Assembly (NCBI RefSeq): GCF_002156705.1
Contig: NZ_CP019893.1
Coordinates: forward strand, 1,488,001-1,552,000
Source of the DNA: Natrarchaeobaculum aegyptiacum
Lineage (GTDB): Archaea; Halobacteriota; Halobacteria; Halobacteriales; Natrialbaceae
Length of the DNA stretch: 64,000 bases
Direction of reading: 5' to 3'
Position numbers and translations under genes: made by a program. Below, one piece after another: positions 47,032 through 64,000 of the stretch. The stretch's first letter is position 1, and each line of letters begins with the position of its first letter. The notes below the pieces were generated by a model, which was not told where the DNA came from, did no database searches, and worked only from the letters and a program-made list of their open reading frames with translations.

Positions 47032-47423
47032 CCGGCAGCGTCGTTTTTCTCCCGCTGTTCTGTCGCTCGAGGTACGGACTCTCCGATAGAGTTACCGCGT
47101 TGGCCCGGGCCACGGGTTCACGTCGAGTGACGACGCGGCGACTCGAGCGCGGGGCCCGCGGCCACACTTGCCGGGAGCGGTGACGGCGCTGGCCGGGAGG
47201 ATCGGAAGATCGGCGCGTTCGGCGCGCTACGTTCGATTCGGTGACTCGAGTCGAGACGGCAGCCACTGCGATCAGGCAACATTGTCCGGCTCGGGGGACC
47301 CCCGTCAGTGTTCGCCCCATTACGGAGAGGTATACTCACGGCGGCAGTGGCCCCGTATACGATGAGTTCTGCATGCAGGTGTGCGGTCCCGGTTCCTGAC
47401 TGGCGCTCGAGCGGGTGGTACCG
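47032..47423. other. Intergenic stretch upstream of the sulfite reductase
   Basis: A T-rich run at about 47042-47047 may terminate ftsY. Two TATA-like elements (GGTATACTC near 47330 and CGTATACG near 47354) lie 60-95 bases before the reductase start. No gene seen. Confidence 0.45.
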
Positions 47424-49163: not shown

Positions 49164-50883
49164 CAGCGAGGGCGAACGCAGTGAGCCCTCGGATCGGGCG
49201 AACGGCGAAGCCGTGAGCCGCGAGGCCGACCGACGGGAGGCCTCGAAAAATCGAGCGGGGAGTGCTGGGACCGAGCGGAGCGACCGCGCCTTCCCCGGCG
49301 TCCCCGACTCACAGACGGAGTCGTCCGACGACGAGCGCGTGCTCGTTTCCGGCGGCGCGGCCGACGAACCGACTCGAGACGGCGCGACCCACACCGCCAC
49401 CGACACCGACAGTGGCTGTGGCCCCGAGACGTGCACCTGCGGCGAGAAGACCGCCGACGTCGCGTCTCCTGAGGTCGGCTCGAGCGCCTCGAGGAAGCCG
49501 AACGGATCGGTCGGCTCGAGGCCCGTCGCCACGGACGGCGCGGGCGTCGCGAACGTCGACGAGGACGGCCAGCTCGGCGACCTCGAGTTCACCGAGCCCG
49601 CCGAGGGTGTCAGTCAGGACCTCTACGAGGGCGATCCGACCCATCGCGTGGGCGTTCCCGAGGGCGTCGACCTCGATACCCCCGAGTACTCGATTCGCTC
49701 GGAGATGAACGACATCGAGACGCCCGACGAGAAGACCTGGTTCCACGAACTCGACGAGGCCGTCATTCAGGACGGGCGCTGTATCCAGTGTGGGACCTGT
49801 GTGGCGGCCTGTCCCTCCGACTCGATCGGCGTCGGTGAGGACGACCACCCCGAACTCGTCAAGATGTGCACCGGCTGTTCGCTCTGCTGGGACTTCTGTC
49901 CCCGCGGCGGCCTCCGGTACGAGCGCCAGTGGGTCGTCACTGGCGGCGAGGACAACGTCAAGGGTGCCGGCGACCCGATCACGGAGTTCTCCGCGCGCGT
50001 CGACGAGGAGTGGACCGACGAGGCCCAGGACGGCGGTGTGGTCACGCACATCCTGGCGACGCTGCTCGAGAAGGGAGAGATCGACGGCGCGCTCATCGCC
50101 ACCGAGGACGACGACGAGCCCTGGAAGGCCGTCAGCTACCTCGCGACGAGCCGTGAGGACCTGATCGCCAATGCGGGGACGATCTACAACCAGACGCTGG
50201 CCGTCGGCAACCTCGACCTCGCCCAGTGGGAGCACAAGCTCCCCGACAAGGACTGGGAGGACCTGAGCCTCGCGTTCGTGGGCACCCCCTGTGAGATCGA
50301 AGGGCTGCGCGCCCTGCAGGACTTCGACTGGCACCACGACTCCCACGAAGAGGGAATCCGCGCCGTCGACTACATGATCTCGCTGATGTGCACGAAGAAC
50401 TTCAACTACTACAGCCTCATCGGCGAGTTACTCGAAGAGCAACGCGGGGTCTCACCCGACCAGATCGGCAAGATGGACGTCCTCCACGGCAAGCTGATGG
50501 TCTACGACCACGACGACGAGATGATCGTCGAGGAGGACGTGACGAACTTCCACGACGCCGCGCTCAAGGGCTGTAACGAGTGTGCCGACTTCACCGGCTT
50601 CTGTTCAGACGTTACGGTGGGATCGGTCGGCTCTTCCGACGAGTACTCGAGCGTCATCATCCGAACCGAACAGGGGATGAAGGCGTGGGAACTCACCGAA
50701 CCGAGTCTGGACTACCACGACCTCGAAGATCGGTCGGCGGTCGGCAAACTCCAGGGCTGGGACAAGAAGCAGGCCTTCGAGAGCCTCGAGCGCCCGTTCG
50801 ACCCCGACGCCCCGCGGTTCATCGACTACACGGATCACGCCGAGAACTACGGCGTCAGGACGAATCCCCACGACGGGGTCTGA
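49153..50883 (+). CDS. F420-reducing hydrogenase beta-subunit-like (FrhB) oxidoreductase with ferredoxin domain
   Basis: 576 residues. An N-terminal disordered, acidic region of about 200 residues contains CGPETCTCGEK, then two 4Fe-4S sets CIQCGTCVAACPSDSIG and CTGCSLCWDFCPRGG, and the FrhB N- and C-terminal domains (GGVVTHILATLLEKGEIDGA, VGTPCEIEGLRAL, SLMCTKNFNYYSL, CNECADFTGFCSDVTVGSVG). Members bind FAD and exchange electrons with F420. Overlap with the upstream sulfite reductase suggests they form one complex. ATG 49153 was chosen over ATG 49120. Confidence 0.88.
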   Translation: MGIDSEGERSEPSDRANGEAVSREADRREASKNRAGSAGTERSDRAFPGVPDSQTESSDDERVLVSGGAADEPTRDGATHTATDTDSGCGPETCTCGEKTADVASPEVGSSASRKPNGSVGSRPVATDGAGVANVDEDGQLGDLEFTEPAEGVSQDLYEGDPTHRVGVPEGVDLDTPEYSIRSEMNDIETPDEKTWFHELDEAVIQDGRCIQCGTCVAACPSDSIGVGEDDHPELVKMCTGCSLCWDFCPRGGLRYERQWVVTGGEDNVKGAGDPITEFSARVDEEWTDEAQDGGVVTHILATLLEKGEIDGALIATEDDDEPWKAVSYLATSREDLIANAGTIYNQTLAVGNLDLAQWEHKLPDKDWEDLSLAFVGTPCEIEGLRALQDFDWHHDSHEEGIRAVDYMISLMCTKNFNYYSLIGELLEEQRGVSPDQIGKMDVLHGKLMVYDHDDEMIVEEDVTNFHDAALKGCNECADFTGFCSDVTVGSVGSSDEYSSVIIRTEQGMKAWELTEPSLDYHDLEDRSAVGKLQGWDKKQAFESLERPFDPDAPRFIDYTDHAENYGVRTNPHDGV

Positions 50884-51017
50884 GTCCCCCCATCTCTTCG
50901 TTCGCAGCGGCTGATCGGGACCGTTCCTTCGTACCTCGCTCGAGAGGAATCGTGCTTCGCTGACGGGTGGTGAACAGACTCGAGAATCCGCCCTGAGAAC
51001 GATCACGTCGCGTTGGA

Positions 51018-51455
51018 CTACGTTTCAGTCAGATAGTCACGGATCTCCGTCAAAAACCGAACGAACCACTCGAGTTGATTTTGGAGGTGGTTGTAAACGA
51101 CGTCGTGATCGAGGTCGTCACCGTAGTTGTGAGCGAGGACGGTTCGAAATCCAGCAGCACCGCGCATCTTTTCACTCGTCTCTGGAGAGATGATGCCGAG
51201 TTCTTCGAGTCGTCGGAACCGACCGGCGTACGTCTCCGGCATCTGTTCGTCGGTTGCAGTCAGGACCAATCCTGCAATATCGAGGCACGCTTCGATCGCC
51301 GTCTGGAACTCTCGTTCGACGATCGCGCGTTGTTCCCGGTCGTTACGGTAGGCATCAGGTGATAGCGATTGCTTTCGGGAGAGAACGGTCAGGGCCTCCT
51401 CGACGTACGTTGCGTTGTGCAAAATTCGCCGCTCGGTATCCTCAGGGACCGTCAC
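51018..51455 (-). CDS. hepT: HepT-type HEPN toxin
   Basis: 145 residues, DUF86/HEPN family. The RNase active-site motif RTVLAHNYG (R104, H109, N110, Y111) matches RxxxxH-x-Y; Y is the residue modified by the partner. Sits downstream of mntA with a four-base overlap. HEPN toxins cleave RNA; MntA neutralises by AMP addition to the tyrosine. Confidence 0.92.
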   Translation of the reverse strand: MTVPEDTERRILHNATYVEEALTVLSRKQSLSPDAYRNDREQRAIVEREFQTAIEACLDIAGLVLTATDEQMPETYAGRFRRLEELGIISPETSEKMRGAAGFRTVLAHNYGDDLDHDVVYNHLQNQLEWFVRFLTEIRDYLTET

Positions 51456-51901
51456 GAGTCGACGCGCGCCTCCAGTCGATCGAGTATCGAATCGAACCGT
51501 CGCATCCTCGTTTCGTGAGTGTCGTCGTCCGGTCGATCCTGCTCGAACTGCGATCGGTACGCCTCGAGAACCTCCTGATCACCAGCAAGAACGGTACCAG
51601 ACGTGACTGCCGACCGGCCGACTGCCGGATCGAGACGGTCGAGATCGACGACGTCGATCGCATCTCTGCCGAGCGCTTCCATCAAATCGACGATCAGTTG
51701 GACTCGCAACTCGAGTCGATCCGAGGGAGCGTGATCGCCGGCAAACGCCACGGCGACGTCGACGTCGCTCTCGGCAGTCTCGGTCCCCGTCGCGTGGGAT
51801 CCAAAGAGCAGTGCCAGGGTGACTGGATACCGGTCGATAACTTCCCTCATCGCCGCCAGATCACGTTCCTCGAGGGAGTGAGGCTCCGATCCCGTGCTCA
51901 T
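51452..51901 (-). CDS. mntA: MntA-type nucleotidyltransferase antitoxin
   Basis: 149 residues. Minimal nucleotidyltransferase: LLFGSHATGTETAESDVDVA carries GS(x10)DxD with G34, S35, D46 and D48. Modifies HepT. A long C-terminal tail (YRSQFEQDRPDDDTHETRMR) is beyond the MNT core. Stop overlaps hepT start (ATGA). Confidence 0.9.
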   Translation of the reverse strand: MSTGSEPHSLEERDLAAMREVIDRYPVTLALLFGSHATGTETAESDVDVAVAFAGDHAPSDRLELRVQLIVDLMEALGRDAIDVVDLDRLDPAVGRSAVTSGTVLAGDQEVLEAYRSQFEQDRPDDDTHETRMRRFDSILDRLEARVDS

Positions 51902-52063
51902 ACGTTTCTGTACGAACGCGGCCAGTAAATCAATTCCCTGGGGAAACGGCCAGGGTCGCCTGCTCGAGTGTGCGTTCGTCGATCGGCATCCCCTCAGCCC
52001 GTTGCGGAGATGCTCGAGAAGCCTCTTCGAGAACGATTCCGTCCTGGTCCGCAGGTGGTCGAC

Positions 52064-52492
52064 TCACTCGAGTGCGTCAGTGACTGGATCGACGACGGTG
52101 AGCCACTCGAGACGCTCACCGAGGCGCTCGAGCCCGGAATCGTGCGTCCAGAGGGTGGAGACGTCGTGGCGGTCCATCGCTGCGACGACCGTCGCGTCAC
52201 GGCCGCCGATCCCGGTGTTCGAGTGGTTTCGGAGGAGGGCTGCCGCGTTCGAAACGTCGTCGCGAGTCAGCGTCGCGACGGTGGTGGCCTCGAGGTCGAG
52301 AAATCGATCGATTTCGGGCTGGCTATCGGCGAGTTGGCGCTGGAGGTAGTGAACGACCTCCATCTGCAGAACAGTCGTGGTGAACAGTGGCTCGTCTTCG
52401 AGCAGTCGTCCGACGGGCCTGCGGACGGAATTGTGTTCTGGAAGGTCACTATCGAGGTAGTAGATCCAGACGTTCGCGTCGAGACAGATCAT
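52064..52492 (-). CDS. vapC: VapC-type PIN toxin
   Basis: 142 residues. PIN-domain acidic residues: MICLDANVWIYYLDSD at the N-terminus, EVVHYLQ in the middle and RDATVVAAMDRHDVSTLWTHD at the end give the usual metal site (D5, E45, D99 region, D117). Expected to cut tRNA or rRNA. Translationally coupled with the AbrB-type antitoxin by a four-base overlap. Confidence 0.9.
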   Translation of the reverse strand: MICLDANVWIYYLDSDLPEHNSVRRPVGRLLEDEPLFTTTVLQMEVVHYLQRQLADSQPEIDRFLDLEATTVATLTRDDVSNAAALLRNHSNTGIGGRDATVVAAMDRHDVSTLWTHDSGLERLGERLEWLTVVDPVTDALE

Positions 52493-52773
52493 TCGGTCGC
52501 GTCTGGAAGATCCGACGTCCAGTCGGCTTTCAGTTCGTCGGGAGCGAGTGAGCCGGCGGGTTGTCGTCGCGTTTCTGCCGTGATACAGCCCTCCATCGTC
52601 TCGACGAATTCCGAACGGGAAACCTGAGATGTGGGTCGGATTACGACTGCACCCTCCTCAATAGCGACTTCGACGTGTTCCCCGGCCTCGAGCGCGAGGC
52701 GTCGTCGGATCGTCTTTGGAATCGTTACTCGACCTTTCGGATCGATTCGTCGTTCGTCGGTGTCCGTTCCCAT
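52489..52773 (-). CDS. vapB: AbrB-type (VapB) antitoxin
   Basis: 94 residues from ATG 52773 (MGTDTDERRIDPKGRVTIPK). The DNA-binding swapped hairpin reads RRIDPKGRVTIPKTIRRRL and EHVEVAIEEGAVVIRPTSQ; the C-terminal half should bind VapC. An upstream frame extension lacks support. The promoter probably lies in 52774-52939. Confidence 0.87.
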   Translation of the reverse strand: MGTDTDERRIDPKGRVTIPKTIRRRLALEAGEHVEVAIEEGAVVIRPTSQVSRSEFVETMEGCITAETRRQPAGSLAPDELKADWTSDLPDATE

Positions 52774-52939
52774 CGTTCTCGTTCCCACTTGGGTGGGAGC
52801 GGTCAAAACGGTTGCCCCGGTCGGGGAGCGTGCAGTGTCCAGATTCGGCGGGCGTGGTTGGCGATCAGGTTTTGTCCCACCGGGGTCGGCAGCATCCGTG
52901 CTCGTCAGTACCACCAGGGAGACCCATCGCGACTCAGCC

Positions 52940-53464
52940 TCACGCAGAGCAGGCGTCCCGTTTGGTCACCAAGTCGTATTCGTTCAGTGCTGCTCGAACC
53001 ACCGAGAGCCGATTCTCGAGGTGTTCCCACTCGCTTGCGACGTCTCGTCGCTGGTCGATCTCGGCTTCGTCCTCGAGTTCCGCGATACTCGCTCGCAGTT
53101 CGCCCGGCGTTTCGACGTCGTACGTTTCCTTCCAGTCTCCGATCTGGATTCGAATCGATTTGAGTGCGGCGGTGAGTTCCTCGCGGTCGTGTTCCCGCTG
53201 GAGGGAGGCAACCTCCCGATACGTCGCCATCAGTTGATCGATGCAGTAGTGAGTCTGGTCGCCTCGCTCTACGGTTCGGAGGACGGAATCCTCGACGAGC
53301 TGGTCGAGGTACTTCCGCGCGGTCTTCACGGAGACTCCCGTCTCGTCGGCGACCCAGGAGGCGGTTCGGGGCTCCCGAAGGGTGCGTGCTGCGGCCCGGA
53401 CGCGCTCTCCTCGAGTCCTCGAGGGGCGCTCGCGACGACCGTTTTCTCGGGCATCGTCGGTCAT
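52940..53464 (-). CDS. Winged-helix regulator with coiled coil (DUF7342-like)
   Basis: 174 residues from ATG 53464, chosen because a TATA box lies about 30 bases upstream, typical of leaderless genes. A helix-turn-helix segment TASWVADETGVSVKTARKYL is followed by RTVERGDQTHYCIDQLM, a winged helix, then a long charged coiled coil. No toxin-like motif. It resembles haloarchaeal HTH proteins near accessory islands. Confidence 0.78.
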   Translation of the reverse strand: MTDDARENGRRERPSRTRGERVRAAARTLREPRTASWVADETGVSVKTARKYLDQLVEDSVLRTVERGDQTHYCIDQLMATYREVASLQREHDREELTAALKSIRIQIGDWKETYDVETPGELRASIAELEDEAEIDQRRDVASEWEHLENRLSVVRAALNEYDLVTKRDACSA

Positions 53465-53823
53465 ACCGTCTCCTACGGGGGTGGCGAACATATATTCACT
53501 GGGTTGGATATTTCTTCGAGAGATGGTGTGGGGCGTTCCGAGGGCGTCCGGTGTCCAGGGTGACCGTTCGTGAGACTCGAGTGAGCGGGTGCCCGAATCA
53601 CCAGCGCTCGAGTCCGGTCTGTACTGGCCTGACTCGAGGTCGGGCGTCGGCGACGGGCGACGAGGGATGCGGTGAGTCGGTGGGACTCGAGCGCGCTCGA
53701 GTGACGGAGACGGGTGTGGCACTGAGCGAGTGAGTGCTGTCGCTCATCGGGTCGTGACGCGCGAAGAAAATTCGGTGTGTCGCAGGTCGCAAGGGCCGGC
53801 GTGAGCCGGTGGTTGATTACCGC
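53465..53823. other. Intergenic stretch between HTH gene and S-layer gene
   Basis: No gene. Its right end (about 53790-53823) closely matches 57230-57262 behind the second S-layer gene, for example CCGGCGTGAGCCGGT, a short hairpin just past both stop codons, so it is probably their terminator. Confidence 0.5.
53489..53498 (-). promoter_or_regulatory. TATA box of the winged-helix gene
   Basis: TGAATATATG on the minus strand, about 30 bases before the chosen start at 53464. Confidence 0.6.
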
Positions 53824-56754
53824 TTAGTTCTGGCGGCGGAGTGCCAGCATCGCGGCGGCGAGCAGTGCGACGACAGCGATGGCGAGGCCGAAGCCTGGGA
53901 CACCGTCGTCCTCGGGCTCGACGTCGTCAGCCGTGTCGTCGGCTGGTGCTGGGTCGTCGTCTTCGTGGTCGTCGACGTGGTCGTCGGCGTCGTCAGCGTG
54001 GTCGTCTTCGTGGTCGTCGGCGTGGTCGTCTTCGTGGTCGTCGACGTGGTCGTCAGCGTCTTCGACTTCCTCGACGAAGATCCCGTCAGCGTCGTCGACG
54101 GAGCTGCCACCGACGCGGAAGTCGAGTTCGGCCTCGTCGTCGACGTTGCGGTCACCGAACTCGAACTCTTCGGACGCGAACGTGCCGTCAGCGTCGATCG
54201 ACACGTCCTCAGTCGAAAGGAAGCTCGGCGTGTCACCGGCGTTGGTGATACGGAGACTGGCATCGGAACCAGGTGCGACGTTCGTCTCACCCGTCACGAC
54301 GGCCTCGTCGCTGGCCTCGAGCTGGACGTTGTCGTCAGCGTCGACGTTGTCGAAGTTGACTGCACGGTCGACCATCGTGAACTCGGTGCTCACGGACTCG
54401 TCAGAGTCGGGGCTGAAGTACGGGTAGGCTGCATCGCCGGATGGGTCTTCACCGGCGTCACCCAGCCACGGGTACTCGGCGAGACCATCGTGGCCGAAGT
54501 AGAACCGTTCGTCGCTGTCGGTTTCGTACTCGATAGTTGCCTCGAACGTGTCACCGTCTTCGACGTCGCGGTCGAACGCATCGGACGAACTCGTGTCAAC
54601 TACAATTAACATCTGACCGTTTGTCGGGTCAGCCCAGATCAGAATGTCATCGTCGCTGGCTTCACCGAAGTCGACGTAGTTCGGGTCCTGGTTACCGACG
54701 CGATCGTCGCCTTCGATCTCGATGGTGATACCCTCACCGTCGATGTTGTTGATGGTATCGATCGTCTGTGGGTGGAAGCCGTCCTCAGTCAGTGGGTCGT
54801 AATCGTCCTCACCGGAGTGGGCGACCATCAGACCGTAGATGCCCGAGAGTTCGGCCTGAACGATGAGTCGGTCATCCTCGGGGATGTCCGTGCGAGGCGT
54901 CATCGTCGCATCGTCGTCGTCCTCACCGAACAGTTCCGAGATGTCGTGCTCGTCGGCGCTGTTCTCAGGTGCGATGAACGTGTTGATCTCGCCGATTTCG
55001 GGCGTGACCAGGTCGACCGTCGCCATGTCGAGTTCGTCGTCGACCTCGAGATCGCCGCCGTCGTCGACGGCAAACACGCCGTTTCCGCTAGCTACGACCG
55101 GGTAGTCGGTCGGCTGGAGCGGTCGGACCAACTGATTGTACGCACCCTCATCAGTGATGTCGAGTTCGGAAAGGAAGCTGTTGAAGCCGACTTGGTCTTC
55201 CTCATCCATGTCTTCGTCGTTGTAGAACTCGACGTCATCGAAGGGTTCTGGAAGGTCCTCAGCAACGTGGTACTGACCGATGAGTGCATCTCTCTCCGCA
55301 TCGGTTTCCTGATCATACAGACCAATTCCATCGACCAAGCTCTCAACTTCGTCGTCACCGGAAACGACAGCCATCGGGTGGCCAGTTCCCATTAGACGCG
55401 TGTTGAGCGTCAGGTCGACTTCACCGTTGCCGGTGTCGTCCTCGACGTAGACGATGTCGACGTAGCCGACGTCCTCGTCACCGAAGACGAGGTAGGCGTC
55501 GTCGGTGTCCTCGAGGTCGATCGTCATGGAGACCGTATCACCGGCGGTCTGCGTGTAGACGCCCTGGCTGAACGAGCCATCAGCGTCGTGTTCGGTCACG
55601 TCGATCGAGGCAGTGGCCTCGGCTTCCGTGTCGTCGACTTCGAAGTCGAAGTCGTACTCACCAGTGTCGATGTCGGTGAAGTTCAGGTCGTAATCATCGT
55701 CGCTGGGAATCCAGATGGTGATGCGGTCTTCGTCGTCGTCAACACCGTCCCAGTCGTTGTCAGTGGCGAGGTCGAAGCTGTCGTCCTCGTCAGTAGTGAA
55801 TATATCCTGAAGGTCCTCGACGTCGAGGTCACCGTCGGCGCTGACGTTCAGCGCGTAGCTGCCGCGGTTGGAGTCGACTTCCATCTCGGTGAGTGCGTCA
55901 GCACCGGCGTCCGTGACGGAGTCATCGTCGAACTCGACATCGAGGTTCTGGACACTCACTTCGAAAGTGTCGGCGCTGGCGATGTCGTTGTTCTGTGCTG
56001 GGAAGGACTGGTCACCGGTGATGAAGTAGTTCTCGTTCTCGAGACTGTCAGTCTCGATCACGACCACTGCCCAGTCAGAGACGTCGCCTTCGACATTGGC
56101 GTCGTCAGCGACGACATCCTCGACGTCAGCGTCTGCAGCCGTCGTGATTGTCTCTTCGGACTCGAAGGTACTCTCTCCGTCACCATCGCCGAAACTGTCG
56201 ACGACGCGGAGCTCAACTTCGTCCTCACCATCACCGTCATTGTAGTAATTGTCAAGGTCTTCGCCGTAGGCGACGACGTCCTGACCCTGCCAGGCGACGC
56301 TACCATCGTAGGCGTACTCGACACCGCCGGGGGAGGCAACTGGTGGCTGCTCGTTGACAGTCACGTCAGCAGTGGCCTGATCCTCGTCACTGCGAACAGT
56401 GACCGTAGTGTCTTCACCGACATCGTCACCATCGGTTTCGTACTCGAGGGTAATCGATTCGGTAACAGCACCCTCAATGGTTACCTCTTCTTCAGCGACT
56501 GCTTCGTCCTCGCCGAAGTCGAGATAGATCGTTTCTGTGTTGTCACCATCGTCGGGGTCCGTCACCTCAACGTAAACCTCGAGGGTCTCACCCTCCGTTA
56601 CTTCTGAGTTAGTCCCTGTAATCTCCACGTCGAAAGGACCTTCTGCTGCCGCCGAACCCGCGAACGCTGCGGACATGGCGACGACAGAGAGAACCATAAT
56701 CGCGGCGAGGAACACCGCCCGTCCCTTTTCACGATATGATGTGTTGTCGTTCAT
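53824..56754 (-). CDS. S-layer glycoprotein with PGF-CTERM
   Basis: 976 residues. Signal peptide GRAVFLAAIMVLSVVAMSAA, cleavage about residue 37; beta-rich exported body with many acid repeats; a Asp/His/Glu-rich stalk (DDHVDDHEDDHADDHEDD); and the archaeosortase signal VPGFGLAIAVVALLAAAML with a basic tail. Builds the surface lattice; the C-terminal helix is expected to be removed and the protein lipid-anchored. The usual Thr-rich stalk is replaced here by a Asp/His stalk. Long AT-rich promoter region upstream. Confidence 0.93.
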   Translation of the reverse strand: MNDNTSYREKGRAVFLAAIMVLSVVAMSAAFAGSAAAEGPFDVEITGTNSEVTEGETLEVYVEVTDPDDGDNTETIYLDFGEDEAVAEEEVTIEGAVTESITLEYETDGDDVGEDTTVTVRSDEDQATADVTVNEQPPVASPGGVEYAYDGSVAWQGQDVVAYGEDLDNYYNDGDGEDEVELRVVDSFGDGDGESTFESEETITTAADADVEDVVADDANVEGDVSDWAVVVIETDSLENENYFITGDQSFPAQNNDIASADTFEVSVQNLDVEFDDDSVTDAGADALTEMEVDSNRGSYALNVSADGDLDVEDLQDIFTTDEDDSFDLATDNDWDGVDDDEDRITIWIPSDDDYDLNFTDIDTGEYDFDFEVDDTEAEATASIDVTEHDADGSFSQGVYTQTAGDTVSMTIDLEDTDDAYLVFGDEDVGYVDIVYVEDDTGNGEVDLTLNTRLMGTGHPMAVVSGDDEVESLVDGIGLYDQETDAERDALIGQYHVAEDLPEPFDDVEFYNDEDMDEEDQVGFNSFLSELDITDEGAYNQLVRPLQPTDYPVVASGNGVFAVDDGGDLEVDDELDMATVDLVTPEIGEINTFIAPENSADEHDISELFGEDDDDATMTPRTDIPEDDRLIVQAELSGIYGLMVAHSGEDDYDPLTEDGFHPQTIDTINNIDGEGITIEIEGDDRVGNQDPNYVDFGEASDDDILIWADPTNGQMLIVVDTSSSDAFDRDVEDGDTFEATIEYETDSDERFYFGHDGLAEYPWLGDAGEDPSGDAAYPYFSPDSDESVSTEFTMVDRAVNFDNVDADDNVQLEASDEAVVTGETNVAPGSDASLRITNAGDTPSFLSTEDVSIDADGTFASEEFEFGDRNVDDEAELDFRVGGSSVDDADGIFVEEVEDADDHVDDHEDDHADDHEDDHADDADDHVDDHEDDDPAPADDTADDVEPEDDGVPGFGLAIAVVALLAAAMLALRRQN

Positions 56755-57262
56755 TGATTGTGTATTGTTGTATTTCGTGTTTGTGATTGGTTAGCGTGCG
56801 ATTCTCCGCGGAGGCGACCGTCGGCACCCGCCCTACGTTACAGCACCGTCCGACCCGGCCACCCAGGTAGGGGTACCCGGAGAATTAATCAGAGTATATT
56901 AAAAGTCTTGTGGGAACAATTTTCCTATTTACGCGATTGTGACTGATCCATTACAGTCAAAACAGTCCTAACTAGTCTCGAGTCTCGAGTTAGTTCTGGT
57001 AGTCAAACCCAGCAGCTGTGGCCGCTTTTAGCGGCGTGTAGCAGGTCGATTACGAGTGTTAAGTATTGGCAAGATCACCGCTCGACGAATAGAATCGAGC
57101 TCGGCGGAGTGCCGTCGCTCGAAAACGTGTACAGCCAGAGAAGTCCACGTCGCGTATTCCGCGTACGAAACAGAGCGTTACCACTGACTGCAGAAGTGTA
57201 GTGGACGCGAAGAAAAATCGGTGTGGCGCAAAAGCCGGCGTGAGCCGGTAGTCAGTTACCGC
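56755..57262. other. Intergenic stretch with S-layer promoter and leader
   Basis: Contains the TATA of the S-layer gene, a leader of roughly 115 bases, and on its left side the end of the second S-layer gene. No gene seen. Confidence 0.5.
56895..56905 (-). promoter_or_regulatory. TATA box of the S-layer gene
   Basis: CTTTTAATATA on the minus strand within a strongly AT-rich island; predicts a start about 25-30 bases downstream and hence a leader near 115 bases, as known for haloarchaeal S-layer genes. Confidence 0.6.
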
Positions 57263-58444
57263 TTAGTTCTGGCGGCGGAGTGCCAGCATCGCGGCGGCGA
57301 GCAGTGCGACGACAGCGATGGCGAGGCCGAAGCCGGGGACACCGTCGTCCTCGGGCTCGACGTCGTCAGCCGTGTCGTCGGCTGGTGCTGGCTCGTCGTC
57401 AACGCCGTCGTCAGCTGGCTCGTCAGCTGGCTCGTCGGCGTGGTCGTCTTCGTGGTCGTCGGCGTCGTCAGCTGGCTCGTCGTCAGCGTCTTCGACTTCT
57501 TCGACGAAGATCCCGTCAGCGTCAGTGACGGAGCTGCCACCGACGCGGAAGTTAATCTCGGCCTCGTCGTCAACGGCGCGGTCGCCGAAGTCGAAGGCCT
57601 CGGTCTCGAAGGTTCCGTCGGAGTCGATCTCAGCGTCCTGCGTCGAGAGGAAGCTTGGCGTGTCGCCAGCGTTGCGCACGCGGACGTCACCTTCGCTGCC
57701 CGGTGCGACGTTGGTCTCACCGGTCAGGACGACGTCCTCACCAGCCTCGATCTGGACGTTGTCGTCAGCGTCGAGGTTGTGGAATTCAGCAGCGGGTTCG
57801 ACGATCGTGAACTCGGTGCTCACGGACTGGTCAGAGTCGGTGCCGAGGTACGGGAAGGCTGCGTCAGCGTTGGCGCCGCTGGAGTCACCAGCACCGCCGT
57901 CGAACGGTCCGTCACCGAACTCGTAGCGGTCGTCGTCGTCGGTCTCGAACTCGAATTCAACGTCGAAGTCCTGACCGTCCTCGAGGTCGCCATCGAAGGC
58001 GTCACCGGAGGACGTGTCGACGACAACGTAGAAGACGCCTTCGTCGTTGTCGATCAGGACGAAGATGTCGCCTTCGTCCTCAGTCTCGAGTTCCAGTGCG
58101 GTGGGCTCCTGGTTGCCGATGCCGTCGTCGGCTTCGACTTCGAAGTTGACACCCTCACCGGAGTTCTCTACGAGGTGGTACAGCGCGGAGGCTTCAGTAC
58201 CGTCCTCGACGATGTCGAAATCGTTGCTGGAGTTGTCAGCCAGGAAGCCGAAGATACCGCTCGCTTCGACTTCGATGATCAGACGGTCGTCTTCAGCAAC
58301 GTCGGTTCGCTCCGTGATCACGTCGCGGAGTTCGTCGAGTTCGTCGTCTTCGTTGGCACTGTCTTCAGGTGCGACGTGCGTGGTGATTTGTACGAACTCC
58401 GTGCGGTCGGGATCGTCACCCTTGGGGTGGACGTTTGCCGATAG
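57263..58444 (-). pseudogene. 5'-truncated second S-layer glycoprotein gene
   Basis: The frame is open from a TGA at 58445-58447 to the stop at 57263 but has no signal peptide and no clear start; a late ATG/GTG in RDVITERTDV would give 352 residues. The sequence aligns with the C-terminal 40 percent of the full S-layer protein (EDSAN..., VAPGSEGDVRVRNAGDTPSF, GGSSVTDADGIFVEEVEDAD) and ends in the same PGF-CTERM region, VPGFGLAIAVVALLAAAML. The last 140 bases and flank are nearly identical to the other gene. Likely a silent donor copy. Confidence 0.85.
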
Positions 58445-58709
58445 TCACCGTGTGTCGACCCCGACGAGATCGTCGGAAGCGTCCGGCCCGACGCCGAGAA
58501 CCTCGTGTGGCGTCTCGGCAAGCTTCCCGTCGCTCGCCGTCTCGAGGCCCACGCCCGCCGAGATCGGTAGCGCCGCTCGAGGCCTCGTAACGTACCACTA
58601 CACATGCGGACGCCCGTGACGCGCGACGAGCCGAGTCGGACTCGAGTCACCCACCGACGACCCCCTCGAGTGGTTCGACCCAACGCCCGCCGACCCCACG
58701 AGGGCCACG
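58445..58709. other. Boundary DNA beyond the truncated S-layer gene
   Basis: Contains a plus-strand orphan C-terminal fragment (58454-58570: VDPDEIVGSVRPDAENLVWR then LGKLPVARRLEAHARRDR and stop) with no start; not recognised. It marks a rearrangement breakpoint. Confidence 0.4.
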
Positions 58710-58886
58710 ATGACCACCCACTGCTTCTGGGCCGACGAGGCGGATCTCCCCGACGACACCTCCCTCCCCACCTGCCCCAGCTGTGGCACCCCGATCACCC
58801 ACGTCACCAGCACCGGCCCCGGCACGCACGTCGCCACCCCCTGTGGCTGTCCCGTCTCCCCGGACGTCCTCGAGCAGGACGAGTAG
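58710..58886 (+). CDS. 58-residue zinc-knuckle protein, copy 1 (intact)
   Basis: MTTHCFWADEADLPDDTSLP, TCPSCGTPITHVTSTGPGTH, VATPCGCPVSPDVLEQDE. CPSC and CGC pairs make a zinc ribbon with C5 as a possible extra ligand. Function unknown; the high copy number and tight link to TA modules suggest either a selfish cassette marker or a role in recombination. Not a known family. Confidence 0.75.
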   Translation: MTTHCFWADEADLPDDTSLPTCPSCGTPITHVTSTGPGTHVATPCGCPVSPDVLEQDE

Positions 58887-58996
58887 GCCGGGTGCTCGAG
58901 GTGACTCGAGGACTGGGGAGCGCTCGAGTGGGTGAAACGAAGCTCACTCCACGAACTGACGGGGCCACTCGTAGCGTCGAGGCTATCTCAAGATGG

Positions 58997-59419
58997 TCAT
59001 TCCGAGCACTGCCCGTCGACGATGTCGAGAAATGTGGCGGGGTTGACAATCTCGATTCCGTCGTACGAACCAAGATCCAGCAAATGCGAATCACCGGAAA
59101 CGACGTAGTCAACATCGGCGGCGACCGCACACTCGACGAACTTGTTATCGTCAGCGTCCACCACGACGTCGAGGTCCGTTTCGGGCGTGACGAAGTCGGC
59201 GTGATCAGCGTACAGAAAGAGGACTTTGGATTTGTCATCGGCCGAGAAGTCGAATTTCGGATAGTTGAGGACCCGGTGGAGTTCGTTCAGCATCGCCTGT
59301 GACGCAGCGAGCGAAACTTCGCCAGTCAGCACCAACTCGACACACTCTTCTGGAGTGCCACCCCATCCGTACGCTGAGATGACGACGTTCGTGTCGAAAA
59401 CAGCAGTTATCTCGCCCAT
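58997..59419 (-). CDS. PIN-domain toxin (COG1569-like)
   Basis: 140 residues. MGEITAVFDTNVVISAYGWG with D9, FVECAVAADVDYVVSGDSHL with acidic residues and E/D in between, giving the PIN quartet. Overlaps its antitoxin gene by 13 bases. It follows repeat copy 1. Confidence 0.9.
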   Translation of the reverse strand: MGEITAVFDTNVVISAYGWGGTPEECVELVLTGEVSLAASQAMLNELHRVLNYPKFDFSADDKSKVLFLYADHADFVTPETDLDVVVDADDNKFVECAVAADVDYVVSGDSHLLDLGSYDGIEIVNPATFLDIVDGQCSE

Positions 59420-59670
59420 TCGATCGCTCGTTCCACTTCGTCCTGCTCGATTCCCTTCTCTTCGAACCGACGCTGGGTTCGCTCACGAACCTCACGAGAG
59501 ACGCCAACTGGGTCGTCTTCGATAGTGGCCTGGAATTCCAGAAGCCGGCCCACGAGATCGTTCAGCGCACTCACGCGAGTCGATCCCTCGCCAACGACGC
59601 CAGTCTCACTATCCACCGCCTCGAACTGGCCGTCGATCTGTGAGACTTCGACAGTCGAGGTCGTGCTCAT
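59407..59670 (-). CDS. HicB-like antitoxin of the PIN module
   Basis: 87 residues, MSTTSTVEVSQIDGQFEAVD with SETGVVGEGSTRVSALNDLV as a HicB/UPF0150-like core, followed by an extended helical tail ERTQRRFEEKGIEQDEVERA that may bind the toxin. Start ATG 59670. A near-identical copy, truncated, is at 62376-62579. Confidence 0.78.
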   Translation of the reverse strand: MSTTSTVEVSQIDGQFEAVDSETGVVGEGSTRVSALNDLVGRLLEFQATIEDDPVGVSREVRERTQRRFEEKGIEQDEVERAIEWAR

Positions 59671-59761
59671 TAGTATCGTTTACTGCCTACTCCGTGGTAA
59701 AAGCTTCTGCGCCGCCGTTCATTGTCGTGTGCGCGCCCGCTCGAGGGCAAGGTGCCCGTCG

Positions 59762-59938
59762 ATGACCGACTTCGACTGCTTCTGGGCCGACGAAGCGGAC
59801 ATCCCCGACGACGTGGACCTCCCCATCTGCGGTGGCTGTGGCACCCCGATCACCCACGTCACCAGCACCGGCCCCGGCACGCACGTCGCCACCCCCTGTG
59901 GCTGTCCCGTCTCCCCGGACGTGCTCGAGTGCGAGTAG
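59762..59938 (+). CDS. 58-residue zinc-knuckle protein, copy 2 (intact)
   Basis: MTDFDCFWADEADIPDDVDL, PICGGCGTPITHVTSTGPGT, HVATPCGCPVSPDVLECE. Same cysteine layout as copy 1. Preceded by the HicB-like antitoxin and followed by the DUF433/DUF5615 module. Confidence 0.75.
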   Translation: MTDFDCFWADEADIPDDVDLPICGGCGTPITHVTSTGPGTHVATPCGCPVSPDVLECE

Positions 59939-60037
59939 GCCGGATGCTCGGGCTGACTCGAGGACTGCAGGGCCGCTCGAGCGCCGGCGAACTACGTGAC
60001 CGGGAATTTGATTACGACCGCACACGAACGAATCGAT

Positions 60038-60262
60038 ATGACCATCGTCCACGACCCAGCCCACAGTGATGGTTCTCCGACGGTGGATGGGACCGGCATC
60101 CGGGTGAAAGATATCGCGGTCGCGTACGAACGGAGTGGGTACGACCCTGACGAAATTACACAACTGTACCCCGACCTCTCGTTGAGCGACGTCCACCGAG
60201 CGCTGGCGTACTACTACGACCATATCGACGACTTCCGGTCTGTCGCCTCGACACCGGCATGA
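60038..60262 (+). CDS. DUF433 antitoxin (VapB45-like)
   Basis: 74 residues, MTIVHDPAHSDGSPTVDGTG, IRVKDIAVAYERSGYDPDEI, TQLYPDLSLSDVHRALAYYY. Short wHTH of the DUF433 family; stop overlaps the toxin start by four bases. Confidence 0.85.
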   Translation: MTIVHDPAHSDGSPTVDGTGIRVKDIAVAYERSGYDPDEITQLYPDLSLSDVHRALAYYYDHIDDFRSVASTPA

Positions 60263-60582
60263 GGCCGCTATACTGCGACGAGAGTATCTGGATTCCCGTT
60301 GCAGACGGACTCCGCCGTCGTGGCTGGACCATCCACACCACCCGTGGAGAGTCGATGCTCGGTGCTCCCGACCGGGAGCAGTTAGCGTTCGCGGTCGACA
60401 ACGACTGGGTGCTGGTGACCTTCGACGACGACTTTCTTTCACTCGTCGAGAGCGAACAGCTCGAGCACAGCGGTATCATCTACGTCAGACAGGCCGGGCG
60501 AGATATCGGTGACGTCGTCAAAGCCGTCGACGCCCACCTCGAGACGCGGTCGCCCGACGATCGAGATATCGCCTACTGCTGA
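60259..60582 (+). CDS. DUF5615 PIN-like toxin (VapC45-like)
   Basis: 107 residues, MRPLYCDESIWIPVADGLRR with D7, VDNDWVLVTFDDDFLSLVES with the acidic pair, GIIYVRQ and a charged tail. PIN-like Mut7-C-type core. Coupled to the DUF433 gene. Confidence 0.85.
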   Translation: MRPLYCDESIWIPVADGLRRRGWTIHTTRGESMLGAPDREQLAFAVDNDWVLVTFDDDFLSLVESEQLEHSGIIYVRQAGRDIGDVVKAVDAHLETRSPDDRDIAYC

Positions 60583-60599
60583 TTCTCCAGCGGACAGAC

Positions 60600-60659
60600 G
60601 AGCACGTCGCCACCCCCTGTGGCTGTCCCGTCTCCCCGGACGTCCTCGAGGGCGACTAG
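60600..60659 (+). pseudogene. Zinc-knuckle copy 3, 3' fragment
   Basis: Only the last 19 codons remain: EHVATPCGCPVSPDVLEGD, stop. No start. The noncoding tail after the stop is fully conserved with the other copies. Confidence 0.8.
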
Positions 60660-60783
60660 GCCGGGTACTCGGGCTGGCTCGAGGACTGGGGGCCGCTCGA
60701 CGACCCCACTGCACCACTGGCTTCAGACGGCGACTGGAAGTATCTCGTCTCCGTCGACGTCGCGACTCCAGTTCGTGAGAACC

Positions 60784-60790
60784 CTTATTA
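60784..60790 (+). promoter_or_regulatory. TATA-like element of RHH/RelE module
   Basis: CTTATTA about 32 bases before the ATG at 60819. Confidence 0.4.
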
Positions 60791-60818
60791 CGACACCTGC
60801 GTAAAGCACGTGTATATC

Positions 60819-61112
60819 ATGTCCGGCACAGACACAGCCAACGGCGGGGACGAACCGGAGACGGTCCAGATCAACCTTCGGGTGAGCAAAGCGTTTCTCG
60901 AGGACATCGACCAGACCTGGAAGCGCCACGGGTTCAATTCTCGAAGTGAATTCCTCCGGTATGCAGCCCGCGACGCGATCAAGCACCCGGAGTTCTCACG
61001 GGAGGGGTGGAAACAGATCGCCGCGAGTGAACACGAGCTGCGAACAGGTGCCGAGGAACTCGTTTCGCGTGAGGACGTTCTCGAGCTGATGGCGACAGAA
61101 GATGACGAGTGA
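60819..61112 (+). CDS. Ribbon-helix-helix antitoxin
   Basis: 97 residues from ATG 60819. N-terminal RHH: ETVQINLRVSKAFLEDIDQT and FNSRSEFLRYAARDAIKHPE. C-terminal helix LVSREDVLELMATEDDE likely wraps the toxin. GTG at 60810 is an alternative start. Overlaps the RelE gene by 11 bases. Confidence 0.87.
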   Translation: MSGTDTANGGDEPETVQINLRVSKAFLEDIDQTWKRHGFNSRSEFLRYAARDAIKHPEFSREGWKQIAASEHELRTGAEELVSREDVLELMATEDDE

Positions 61113-61389
61113 CGAAGACTGGACGTGGAAGTTTACCCCTCGAGCGGCGGATCAGTTCGCGTCCCTCGATCCACACATTCAGGATCGGATCGTGTCGAAG
61201 CTCGACGACGTCGTCGACTCCGACTGGCGCAATCCAGATGATTTCCTCGAACCGCTAACCGGCGGGCCATTCGACAAACTACGCGTTGGCCAGTACAGAG
61301 TAGCCTGCGTCCCCAATCACGGAACCGCTACACTCGAAGTTCATCGGATCGAACATCGAAGTGGTGCGTATACTGCTGACGACGATTGA
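61102..61389 (+). CDS. RelE/ParE-type toxin
   Basis: 95 residues, MTSDEDWTWKFTPRAADQFA, SLDPHIQDRIVSKLDDVVDS, LRVGQYRVACV, LEVHRIEHRSGAYTADDD. Canonical RelE fold with K/R-rich active-site strands. Its last 24 codons are duplicated behind the DUF3368 gene. Confidence 0.88.
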   Translation: MTSDEDWTWKFTPRAADQFASLDPHIQDRIVSKLDDVVDSDWRNPDDFLEPLTGGPFDKLRVGQYRVACVPNHGTATLEVHRIEHRSGAYTADDD

Positions 61390-61430
61390 CGTGCCGTTCG
61401 AAACGAGCGGCGGATTCTGAACAGACCCTC

Positions 61431-61530
61431 AAGATCCCCATCTGCTCTGGCTGCGGCACCTCCCATCACTCGCGTCGCCACCCCCTGTGGCTGTCCCGTC
61501 TCCCCGGACGTCCTCGAGCAGGACGAGTAG
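61431..61530 (+). pseudogene. Zinc-knuckle copy 4, internally deleted
   Basis: KIPICSGCGT is followed by an internal deletion of about 24 bases and a frameshift, then the conserved 3' end. No start codon of the family. Homologous block with copy 6. Confidence 0.75.
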
Positions 61531-61610
61531 ACCGGATGCTCGGGCTGGCTCGAGGACCGAGCGCCGCTCGAGTATCCACGTGTGAAGTCGAGGCCCGCTC
61601 GAGCCGACTC

Positions 61611-61619
61611 TTTAAATAT
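61611..61619 (+). promoter_or_regulatory. TATA box of the second DUF433/DUF5615 module
   Basis: TTTAAATAT about 30 bases before the ATG at 61645, indicating a leaderless transcript and that the module brings its own promoter. Confidence 0.65.
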
Positions 61620-61644
61620 CGTGCCGACCAAGTACTGACACAAC

Positions 61645-61923
61645 ATGGCGACTGTCGTCCGGACGGATGACGTTCTCGGTGGCGAGCCACGGCTCGAGGG
61701 AACACGGGTCGGCGTCCTCGACGTATACGAACTCGTCGTCGGCGGTGGCTATCCACCCGCAGACGTTGCAGACCAGCTCGATCGGTCACTCGGTGAGGTG
61801 TATACGGCACTCGCCTACTATCACGAGCACCCGGAAGAAATGCGTGAGTGCCGTCGGGAACGTGAGGAAGCAGTGGCCGAACTCGCTGACAGGGCACTCC
61901 AGCCACCAGAACCCGCACAGTGA
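61645..61923 (+). CDS. DUF433 antitoxin, second module
   Basis: 92 residues, MATVVRTDDVLGGEPRLEGT, RVGVLDVYELVVGGGYPPAD, LGEVYTALAYYHEHPEEMRE. Different subgroup from the first DUF433 gene. GTGA overlap with the toxin. Confidence 0.85.
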   Translation: MATVVRTDDVLGGEPRLEGTRVGVLDVYELVVGGGYPPADVADQLDRSLGEVYTALAYYHEHPEEMRECRREREEAVAELADRALQPPEPAQ

Positions 61924-62207
61924 CCTGTTCGTTTTGCACCGACGAACACGTTCCCAGTGTCTTCGTCACGACCCTTCGATCTGGTGGATACGAGGTCGTG
62001 ACCGCAAACTCGGTGTTCGGCGAAGGGACCGACGACCGAAGCCTGCTCGAGTACTGTAGCGATGCAGACCACGTGTTCATCACGCACGATAAGAAGGATT
62101 TTGGAGGAGTTCTCGGTTCTGTAGTCGACCACGCAGGGATCGTAATTTACACGGATCCGGTGTTTCTCCGGGCAGAGCCAGATTCTGCAGTTCGAACACT
62201 CGAGTGA
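61920..62207 (+). CDS. DUF5615 PIN-like toxin, second module
   Basis: 95 residues, GTG start: MTCSFCTDEHVPSVFVTTLR with D8, SVFGEGTDDRSLLEYCSDAD, HVFITHDKKDFGGVLGSVVD with the acidic residues. Coupled to its DUF433 partner. Confidence 0.85.
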   Translation: MTCSFCTDEHVPSVFVTTLRSGGYEVVTANSVFGEGTDDRSLLEYCSDADHVFITHDKKDFGGVLGSVVDHAGIVIYTDPVFLRAEPDSAVRTLE

Positions 62208-62299
62208 GCACTCGAACACTTTTCGCCGGAAGAGATTCGTGGTGAACGGATCTGGCTCGATCAGTGGCGTCGAGAAAATCGGTAGGGCTCAACAGTATC

Positions 62300-62579
62300 G
62301 GTACGAAAACAGCAGTTATCTCGCCCAGTCGATCGCTCGTTCCACTTCGTCCGGCTCGATCCTTTCCGCGGCAAATCAGCTCTGGGTTCGCTCACGTACT
62401 TCACGAGAGACGCCAACTGGGTCCGCTTCGATATCAGCTTGAAATTCCAGCAGACGACTCACGAGATCGTTCAGCGCACTCACGCGCGTCGATCCCTCGC
62501 CAACGACGCCAGTCTCACTATCCACTGCCTCGAACTGGCCGTCGATCTGTGAGACTTCGACAGTCGAGGTCGTGCTCAT
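62300..62579 (-). pseudogene. Truncated HicB-like antitoxin plus PIN start remnant
   Basis: Copy of 59407-59670. The antitoxin frame (62376-62579) keeps 67 residues, near identical, then ends at a new stop (ERTQS). Beyond it, 62300-62375 still resembles the old 3' end and the first nine codons of the PIN toxin, but its ATG is now CTG. The rest of the toxin is gone. Confidence 0.8.
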
Positions 62580-62663
62580 TAGCATCATCTACTGCGTACT
62601 CCTTCGAAAAAGCTTCTCCGTCGCCGTGTGACGTGGTGGAGGCTACTTGACAGGTGCCCGCCG

Positions 62664-62839
62664 ATGACCGACGTCCAGTGCTTCTGGGCCGACGAGGCGG
62701 ACCTACCCGACGGCCCGGACATTCCCATCTGTCCGCGGTTTCACACCCCATCACCCACGTCACCAGCACCGGCCCCGGAACCCACGTCGCCACCCCCTGT
62801 GGCTGTCCCGTCTCGCCGCGCGTGCTCGAGCGCGAGTAA
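62664..62839 (+). pseudogene. Zinc-knuckle copy 5, frameshifted
   Basis: MTDVQCFWADEADLPDGPDI starts normally, then PICPRFHT replaces the second cysteine and the frame shifts; the last part repeats the conserved DNA but out of frame. Its upstream flank resembles that of copy 2. Confidence 0.78.
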
Positions 62840-63026
62840 GCCGGGTGCCCGGGCTGGCTCGAGGACGAAGCGCCACTCGAGAACCCGGCGTCCGGAATCA
62901 CCGGTAGACGTGGTCGGCCACCGGTGCTCGAGTAGCCGTCGACAGCCAGCGTACAATCGACCGCTCGAACGAAAGCGAGTCCCCTGCTCCCAAGAGGCTT
63001 TGTATCCGAGCCACCTATCTCATCGT

Positions 63027-63275
63027 ATGCGGACGATCGAGGTTCCAGCGGACGTGTACGACTCAGTCTCCGTTCCAGAAGGTGAACGGGAAGACGTACT
63101 CAGACAGGAGCTAGCACTGTCGTTGTATCGAGAACGAATGCTCTCGTTCGGAAAGGCGCGAGAACTCGCCGGGATGTCCCACCGGGAGTTCCAGCGGCTC
63201 CTCGGCGAGCGCGAGGTCGAGCGCCACTACACTGACGACGAACTGGCAGAAGACCTCGAGTATGGGCGACGATAA
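63027..63275 (+). CDS. UPF0175 antitoxin
   Basis: 82 residues, MRTIEVPADVYDSVSVPEGE, ALSLYRERMLSFGKARELAG, MSHREFQRLLGEREVERHYT. wHTH-type UPF0175 that is usually paired with DUF3368 toxins. Overlaps toxin by 14 bases. Confidence 0.88.
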   Translation: MRTIEVPADVYDSVSVPEGEREDVLRQELALSLYRERMLSFGKARELAGMSHREFQRLLGEREVERHYTDDELAEDLEYGRR

Positions 63276-63753
63276 TCTGATCGTTGCGGATACATCGCCC
63301 CTTTTAAACCTCGCGTTGATCGACCGACTCGAGTTCGTCCGTAATCAGTTTTCGACGGTCGAGGTTCCAGAACAGGTCTGGACTGAGCTGATGGATGGCG
63401 TCAATGGCGTCGAGACGCTCCGTACCGCCCACAACGACGGAGTGCTCGAAATCGTCCCGGTCGAGAAAACACCACTCTTCGAAGAATTTCGACGGAATCT
63501 CGACGTCGGAGAGGCAGCAACACTTGCATACGCGATCGACACGAACGCGGATCTCGTACTGCTCGATGAGCGTGACGCACGCCAGACTGCCCGACGCCAC
63601 GGGCTCGAGATGACAGGTGTGATCGGCATACTCCTGCGCGAGTTTGGAGGGGAGCCAGACGCGTTACGGACGGAACTCGATCGACTCCGGAGTGCGGGGT
63701 TCTGGATCTCCGAAAGCCTGTATGAGACTGCCATCGAGCGTGCCAGAAACTAA
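63262..63753 (+). CDS. DUF3368 PIN-like toxin
   Basis: 163 residues, MGDDNLIVADTSPLLNLALI with D10, LDVGEAATLAYAIDTNADLV with E and LLDERDARQTARRHGLEMTG with D. PIN-fold nuclease, partner of UPF0175. Confidence 0.88.
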   Translation: MGDDNLIVADTSPLLNLALIDRLEFVRNQFSTVEVPEQVWTELMDGVNGVETLRTAHNDGVLEIVPVEKTPLFEEFRRNLDVGEAATLAYAIDTNADLVLLDERDARQTARRHGLEMTGVIGILLREFGGEPDALRTELDRLRSAGFWISESLYETAIERARN

Positions 63754-63757
63754 TTCG

Positions 63758-63838
63758 GTTCCAGATCACGAAACCGCCACACTCGACGTTCATCGGATCG
63801 AGCAGCGAAGTGGTGCGTATACTGCTGCCAACGATTGA
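63758..63838 (+). pseudogene. RelE C-terminal remnant
   Basis: VPDHETATLDVHRIEQRSGA YTAAND and stop, equal in layout to the last 26 codons of the RelE toxin (VPNHGTATLEVHRIEHRSGA). The duplicated block continues into zinc-knuckle copy 6, as it does behind the real RelE into copy 4. Confidence 0.82.
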
Positions 63839-63879
63839 CGTGCCGTTCGAAACGAGCGACGGGTTCTGGACAGGCCCTC

Positions 63880-64000
63880 AACATCCCCATCTGCTCCGGC
63901 TGTGACACCCCCCATTACCCACGTCACCAGCACCGGTCCCGGCACCCACGTCGCCACCCCCTGTGGCTGTCCCATCTCGCCGAGCGTGCTCGAGCGCGAG
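63880..64000 (+). pseudogene. Zinc-knuckle copy 6, frameshifted and cut by window end
   Basis: NIPICSGCDTP, then one extra C shifts the frame; the rest of the 3' end is intact DNA. Continues past the window, where another TA module is predicted. Confidence 0.7.

Follow-up and report, generated by a model that had tools for sequence, protein, structure and literature searches.

A truncated S-layer-type gene in Natrarchaeobaculum aegyptiacum as a probable bystander of 3'-polar concerted evolution among S-layer paralogs

Silent copies of surface-layer (S-layer) genes are known from the sap system of Campylobacter fetus, which relies on a single promoter, on inversion and on numerous silent cassettes that have a conserved 5' end. 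The haloarchaeal genes described here resemble sap in that several S-layer genes share a conserved end and have a divergent remainder, with promoterless sequence present as well; they differ in that every complete paralog comes with a leader of its own, and the truncated copy, S2, is single and broken. A second class of known system is concerted evolution. Gene conversion is efficient in haloarchaea, as intermolecular events in Haloferax volcanii have demonstrated (PMC11276520), and the same article sets concerted evolution by intramolecular gene conversion (of rRNA, tuf and nif genes) against antigenic variation. In concerted evolution the copies within a genome are alike over short tracts whereas positional orthologs differ, and this is also what we find; unlike in the rRNA, tuf and nif genes, the homogenization of S-layer genes is polar, affecting mainly the 3' end (and the 5' leader in one pair of genes in a relative), while the central body stays divergent. 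The VARTIG modules of Thermococcales (PMC8416519) are similar in comprising a large Ig-domain surface protein, shorter genes that align to its C-terminal region and sorting signal, and recombination at this end, but there the C-terminal domain is hypervariable and exchanged between species, whereas here it is the most uniform end and is exchanged within the genome. The VARTIG authors also report many Methanosarcinales loci in which C-terminal domains are conserved or homogenized by recombination (PMC8416519). S-layer genes recombine in Haloferax (PMC5867893) and in Haloquadratum walsbyi, where the cell-wall island GI1 places surface genes in a variable island (PMC4535781); exchange in both cases is between strains or lineages, whereas here it is from paralog to paralog. 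We found no description of paralog tail homogenization in haloarchaeal S-layer genes in the open-access literature searched.

The window, the whole stretch of 64,000 nucleotides that was analyzed, spans C1:1488001-1552000 of a 3.93 Mb haloarchaeal genome assembled as a single contig (C1). Four complete S-layer-type genes and one fragment are present in this genome:

S1, window 53824-56754, minus strand: complete gene of 976 aa with signal peptide, DUF7827, BGTF surface domain, acidic spacer and PGF-CTERM
S2, window 57263-58389, minus strand: 5'-less remnant of about 375 codons
S3, C1:456584-459079, plus strand: complete paralog
S4, C1:1298271-1301603, minus strand: complete paralog
S5, C1:1552357-1556946, plus strand: complete paralog of ~1530 aa, beginning just beyond the window end

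The BGTF surface domain is found in all five, the PGF-CTERM motif in S1, S2, S3 and S4, and the haloarchaeal surface-glycoprotein signal peptide in S1, S3, S4 and S5. The signal peptide of S1 scores 48.9 bits against TIGR04207 (cut-off 24.6), and this signal is not found in S2. A search with a profile built from the C-terminal region hits csg, the S-layer protein of Haloferax volcanii (PDB 7ptp residues 513-793, E = 9.5e-12); the last two Ig-like domains of csg contribute to lattice contacts (PMC8640222). Because S1 reaches only 103 bits against NF041335, far under the curated equivalog cut-off of 1100 bits, "S-layer-type" is the safe name for this divergent protein, which lies outside that equivalog; its role in the lattice is putative, and we assign none of S1, S3, S4 and S5 as the main expressed paralog. 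The same S-layer subfamily is also present in a Natrialba swarupiae contig. The C-terminal part of S5 resembles a separate gene (L046:9820-10764) that adjoins an S-layer paralog in another relative, G003, and S5 is possibly a fusion of neighboring genes.

A preliminary description of this locus, made from the letters of the window, had pointed to an S-layer-like gene with an adjacent 5'-less copy in the same orientation, the two having a near-identical last 140 coding bases and a diverged body, and both points are borne out. S2 lies upstream of S1 within an open frame of 394 codons (393 aa) on the minus strand, running from 58444 down to a stop at 57263. Homology to family members begins at ~58389, so that the first ~19 codons of the frame are unrelated. 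The frame contains no stops or frameshifts, in-frame GTG or ATG codons occur only at codons 41, 207, 255 and 385, and the first in-frame GTG sits within conserved S-layer sequence. Compared with the complete paralogs, S2 has no signal peptide, leader or recognizable promoter module. The parts of S1 and S2 that matter for the comparison are as follows (window coordinates):

56755-56895, minus strand: promoter-proximal region and leader of S1, a TACCCCTACC block and a leader common to the complete paralogs and absent from S2
58390-58720: junction DNA where S2 breaks off on its 5' side, without S-layer similarity
57256-57391, minus strand: near-identical tail tract, S2 copy, comprising the last part of the acidic spacer, the PGF-CTERM and the stop (135/136 nt)
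53817-53952, minus strand: near-identical tail tract, S1 copy, partner of 57256-57391
57479-57571, minus strand: second high-identity patch of S2, at the end of the BGTF-side domain (85/93 vs S1 54049-54141)
57234-57249, minus strand: terminator stem downstream of S2, family-wide (S1 equivalent 53795-53810)

The junction DNA yields no substantial or informative match in 24 relatives. S2 is the sole 5'-truncated copy among the strong matches listed from 125 family genomes, the others being at least 818 aa long against 393. A structure model of the S2 region is poor (mean pLDDT 49.9), and its PDB fold matches, which reach a TM of about 0.2 and are tandem Ig pairs of a generic kind, were set aside as evidence. 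In another relative, the second of two tandem S-layer copies (G015:C26:6502-8523) bears an in-frame TAA inside the matched region, the other copy being intact; the second one is possibly a further tandem copy in decay.

Identity between S1 and S2 is strongly uneven along the gene. The last 140 coding bases are identical at 135 positions, whereas identity outside the tail is 53-86% per 40-codon window and 53-61% over S2 codons 0-160. The 136-nt core tract has a single difference, which does not polarize the transfer. The terminator flanks were also said to be near-identical. A resemblance is indeed present, but the terminator, an ACCGGC/GCCGG-type stem followed by T-rich DNA, is mostly a family-wide one that also occurs in other species; flank likeness is thus weak evidence for recent S1-S2 exchange, and it was dropped once the 3' flanks had been compared.

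The body and the tail of S2 have different relationships. In the body tree the grouping of S1 with S2 is rejected (AU test, P = 2.2e-6), S2 pairs with S3, and the S1 body is closest to S4. In the tail tree, which is short and has weak support at most branches, S2 is nearest to S1, and a grouping of S2, S3 and paralog b of G003, not rejected by the body tree, is rejected (P = 1e-4). Only 1 of 29 fourfold-degenerate sites differs between S1 and S2 in the tail, as against ~40% elsewhere, so that the comparison of synonymous divergence proposed in the preliminary description does not give uniform divergence with a tail held by sorting constraint. The longest S1-S2 run of shared polymorphic sites exceeds chance (permutation P = 1e-4); with synonymous sites alone in the four genes of this genome (G000), where such sites are few, the run test is not significant (P = 0.17). 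The shared tail spans a short stretch (84-140 nt) under sorting constraint, and codon bias could raise its identity but would not explain grouping by genome. The incongruent trees and the identity at silent sites show that recombination produced the tail shared by S1 and S2. Non-reciprocal gene conversion is the most likely means of exchange, in line with the conversion invoked in the preliminary description.

Tail sharing extends well beyond this pair. At least four other Natrialbaceae genomes contain full-length paralogs, dispersed ones among them, that have tails in common, and the tails group by genome and not by body type. In a comparison covering 23 genes from nine genomes, fourfold-site differences in the tail at matched body identity are 19-28% within genomes and 42-47% between genomes (label-shuffle P = 2e-4; this test and the window tests below count related genes or adjacent windows as independent, so their P values are approximate). 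Similarity of a tract that is higher within than between genomes at a matched background is one hallmark of concerted evolution; disagreement between the tract tree and the rest-of-gene tree is another, and it is seen both in the AU tests and in a switch between ortholog and paralog in two relatives of the same genus, G069 and G070. Each of the two has a syntenic array of three full-length genes, and the sequences flanking the arrays match on either side. Over codons 0-650 of the G069 genes the positional G070 orthologs are the best match and the genome's own paralogs win 7 of 39 windows, whereas beyond codon 650 its own paralogs win 13 of 14 (Fisher's exact test, P = 1e-6). Since the arrays consist of full-length genes, a truncated copy is not required for tails to be exchanged. 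An unusual tail, GIAVALFALIAAGMLALRRQN, is common to three dispersed paralogs of G003; the three tails form one clade (99/97), whereas a clade of the corresponding bodies is rejected (P = 0.017). The 5' leaders of G003 paralogs b and c (L047, L048) are identical at 117 of 128 positions, with 36% identity in the DNA just upstream and ~69% in the bodies, which suggests that the leader as well as the tail was exchanged between them. Taken at the level of sequence comparison, these patterns point to 3'-polar concerted evolution of S-layer paralogs throughout the Natrialbaceae.

The process does not appear to be purely tail-limited. In genes 1 and 3 of the G070 array (G070_3138 and G070_10060, L090), a central stretch is closer between the two than to their orthologs (run P = 0.001), which suggests a mosaic S-layer body and exchange of body segments as well. 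The wider idea of the preliminary description finds its best support here, yet the case involves full-length genes over evolutionary time. The paralogs of the Natrialbaceae might even form a recombining surface repertoire, in which conversion would keep the 5' leader and signal and the 3' anchor exchangeable so that bodies or domains recombine, with full-length tandem genes and S2-like remnants as a reservoir and S-layer-using viruses perhaps as the driving force, which would amount to an S-layer diversification system in archaea; we hold this broader scheme to be rather unlikely, and offer it tentatively.

For S2 itself, the evidence probably fits best with a bystander remnant whose tail was homogenized in the course of family-wide 3'-polar concerted evolution, not with a dedicated silent cassette. 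The preliminary description had favored the latter: S2 would be a silent donor for surface variation, and conversion would copy its C-terminal region into S1 and so vary the protein shown at the surface, in the manner of silent loci in bacteria. S2 does look, by its sequence, like an expression-less partial copy, since it is without leader, signal peptide and promoter module; it adjoins S1 in the same orientation, its 3' identity is high, exact blocks of 20-30 nt reach up to 57828, and G070 has full-length tandem paralogs whose bodies are mosaic. A silent cassette would also be expected to have conserved homology on either side of the variable part, and several donors in an architecture kept in relatives. 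The homology at the ends that was thought to permit a swap of the C-terminal 40% of S1 is present on the 3' side but fails on the 5' side, where the longest exact match above 57828 is 15 nt, leaving a tract of that extent with little anchorage at its distal end, and S2 is the nearest match to S1 only from about codon 850. Moreover, the body of S2 is closest to S3, S2 is the only donor, and its architecture is seen nowhere else among the strong matches from the 125 genomes. What S1 and S2 share is the C-terminal stalk and anchor, where the protein varies least; exchange makes the copies alike, and full-length paralogs share tails without any truncated copy. A simple crossover between S1 and S2 as direct repeats would probably remove the S1 promoter and 5' part. 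A donor role for S2 is hence improbable.

There is an equally small chance that S2 was copied from S1 by recent tandem duplication and that purifying selection on the sorting signal preserved the tail with no exchange at all. S1 and S2 do lie at the same locus in the same orientation, and the PGF-CTERM motif is conserved everywhere in the family, but the body phylogeny places S2 with S3 and not with S1 (AU test, P = 2e-6), and silent sites of the tails are homogenized within genomes and not between genomes with equally similar bodies; unless the body trees mislead, duplication without exchange is already contradicted. That S2 is a functional short gene encoding a separate anchor-domain protein is the least credible explanation of all, for its uninterrupted frame and its dN/dS of 0.31 to S3 are offset by the lack of a signal peptide, leader or plausible start, and the share of non-synonymous changes on the S2 side is raised slightly and not significantly (33/50 vs 18/33, P = 0.36).

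On the bystander reading, S2 is what is left, at the 3' side, of an S-layer-type gene that was formerly complete and lies in a lineage-specific surface-gene island; its anatomy shows that the 5' part, including promoter, leader and signal peptide, has been lost. Recombination among paralogs then overwrote the stretch from the last part of the acidic spacer through the PGF-CTERM anchor to the stop, leaving the S1 and S2 tails nearly alike, and would keep the C-terminal anchor end uniform while the N-terminal and central domains diverge. The constrained anchor end has the highest local identity and so may seed conversion tracts, and its uniformity may help the copies to be anchored and packed alike. 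Because the S2-S3 dN/dS is like that of complete pairs and S2 has no stops, the body appears to have diverged while functional and the truncation to be recent; most of the divergence of S2 probably predates truncation, and we read S2 as a recent remnant. A long-dead pseudogene was considered and rejected, as both dN/dS and open frame match those of complete genes.

The measurable pattern is that haloarchaeal S-layer paralogs exchange 3' ends within a genome while other domains diverge. If this is true, whole-protein S-layer trees would mislead, the copies in one cell would keep a common anchor end, which may help them to share one lattice, and surface types could recombine between tandem copies. 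Each of these points can be checked in culturable species of the Natrialba group that carry syntenic three-gene arrays.

S1, S2 and S5 lie together in a block that also holds a toxin-antitoxin-type array:

Window 47034-64000 and on to C1:1558610: lineage-specific block of ~23.6 kb with S1, S2, the toxin-antitoxin array and S5
Window 58720-64000 and on to about C1:1552011: toxin-antitoxin-type array between S2 and S5

The block is bounded by ftsY-like and thiE-like genes, named from their translations and not from a family search. The distance between these two genes is 1.07 kb in G003 and 0.57 kb in G016, in which the S1-S2-S5 block is missing, and 4.5-7.8 kb in G069, G050, G070 and G015, in which the S-layer genes found are on other contigs. 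With 0.57-7.8 kb in six relatives against 23.6 kb here, the spacing of the flanking genes indicates a lineage-specific island at a variable site; no tRNA was found at the island ends scanned. The array comprises a PIN_3 gene with a DUF7387-like partner, two DUF433/DUF5615 pairs, an RHH/ParE pair and a UPF0175/DUF3368 pair. A small Cys-rich gene recurs between the pairs in at least six complete or partial copies, and four weaker copies of it occur elsewhere in the genome; the arrangement resembles a cassette-type array with repeats as its boundaries.
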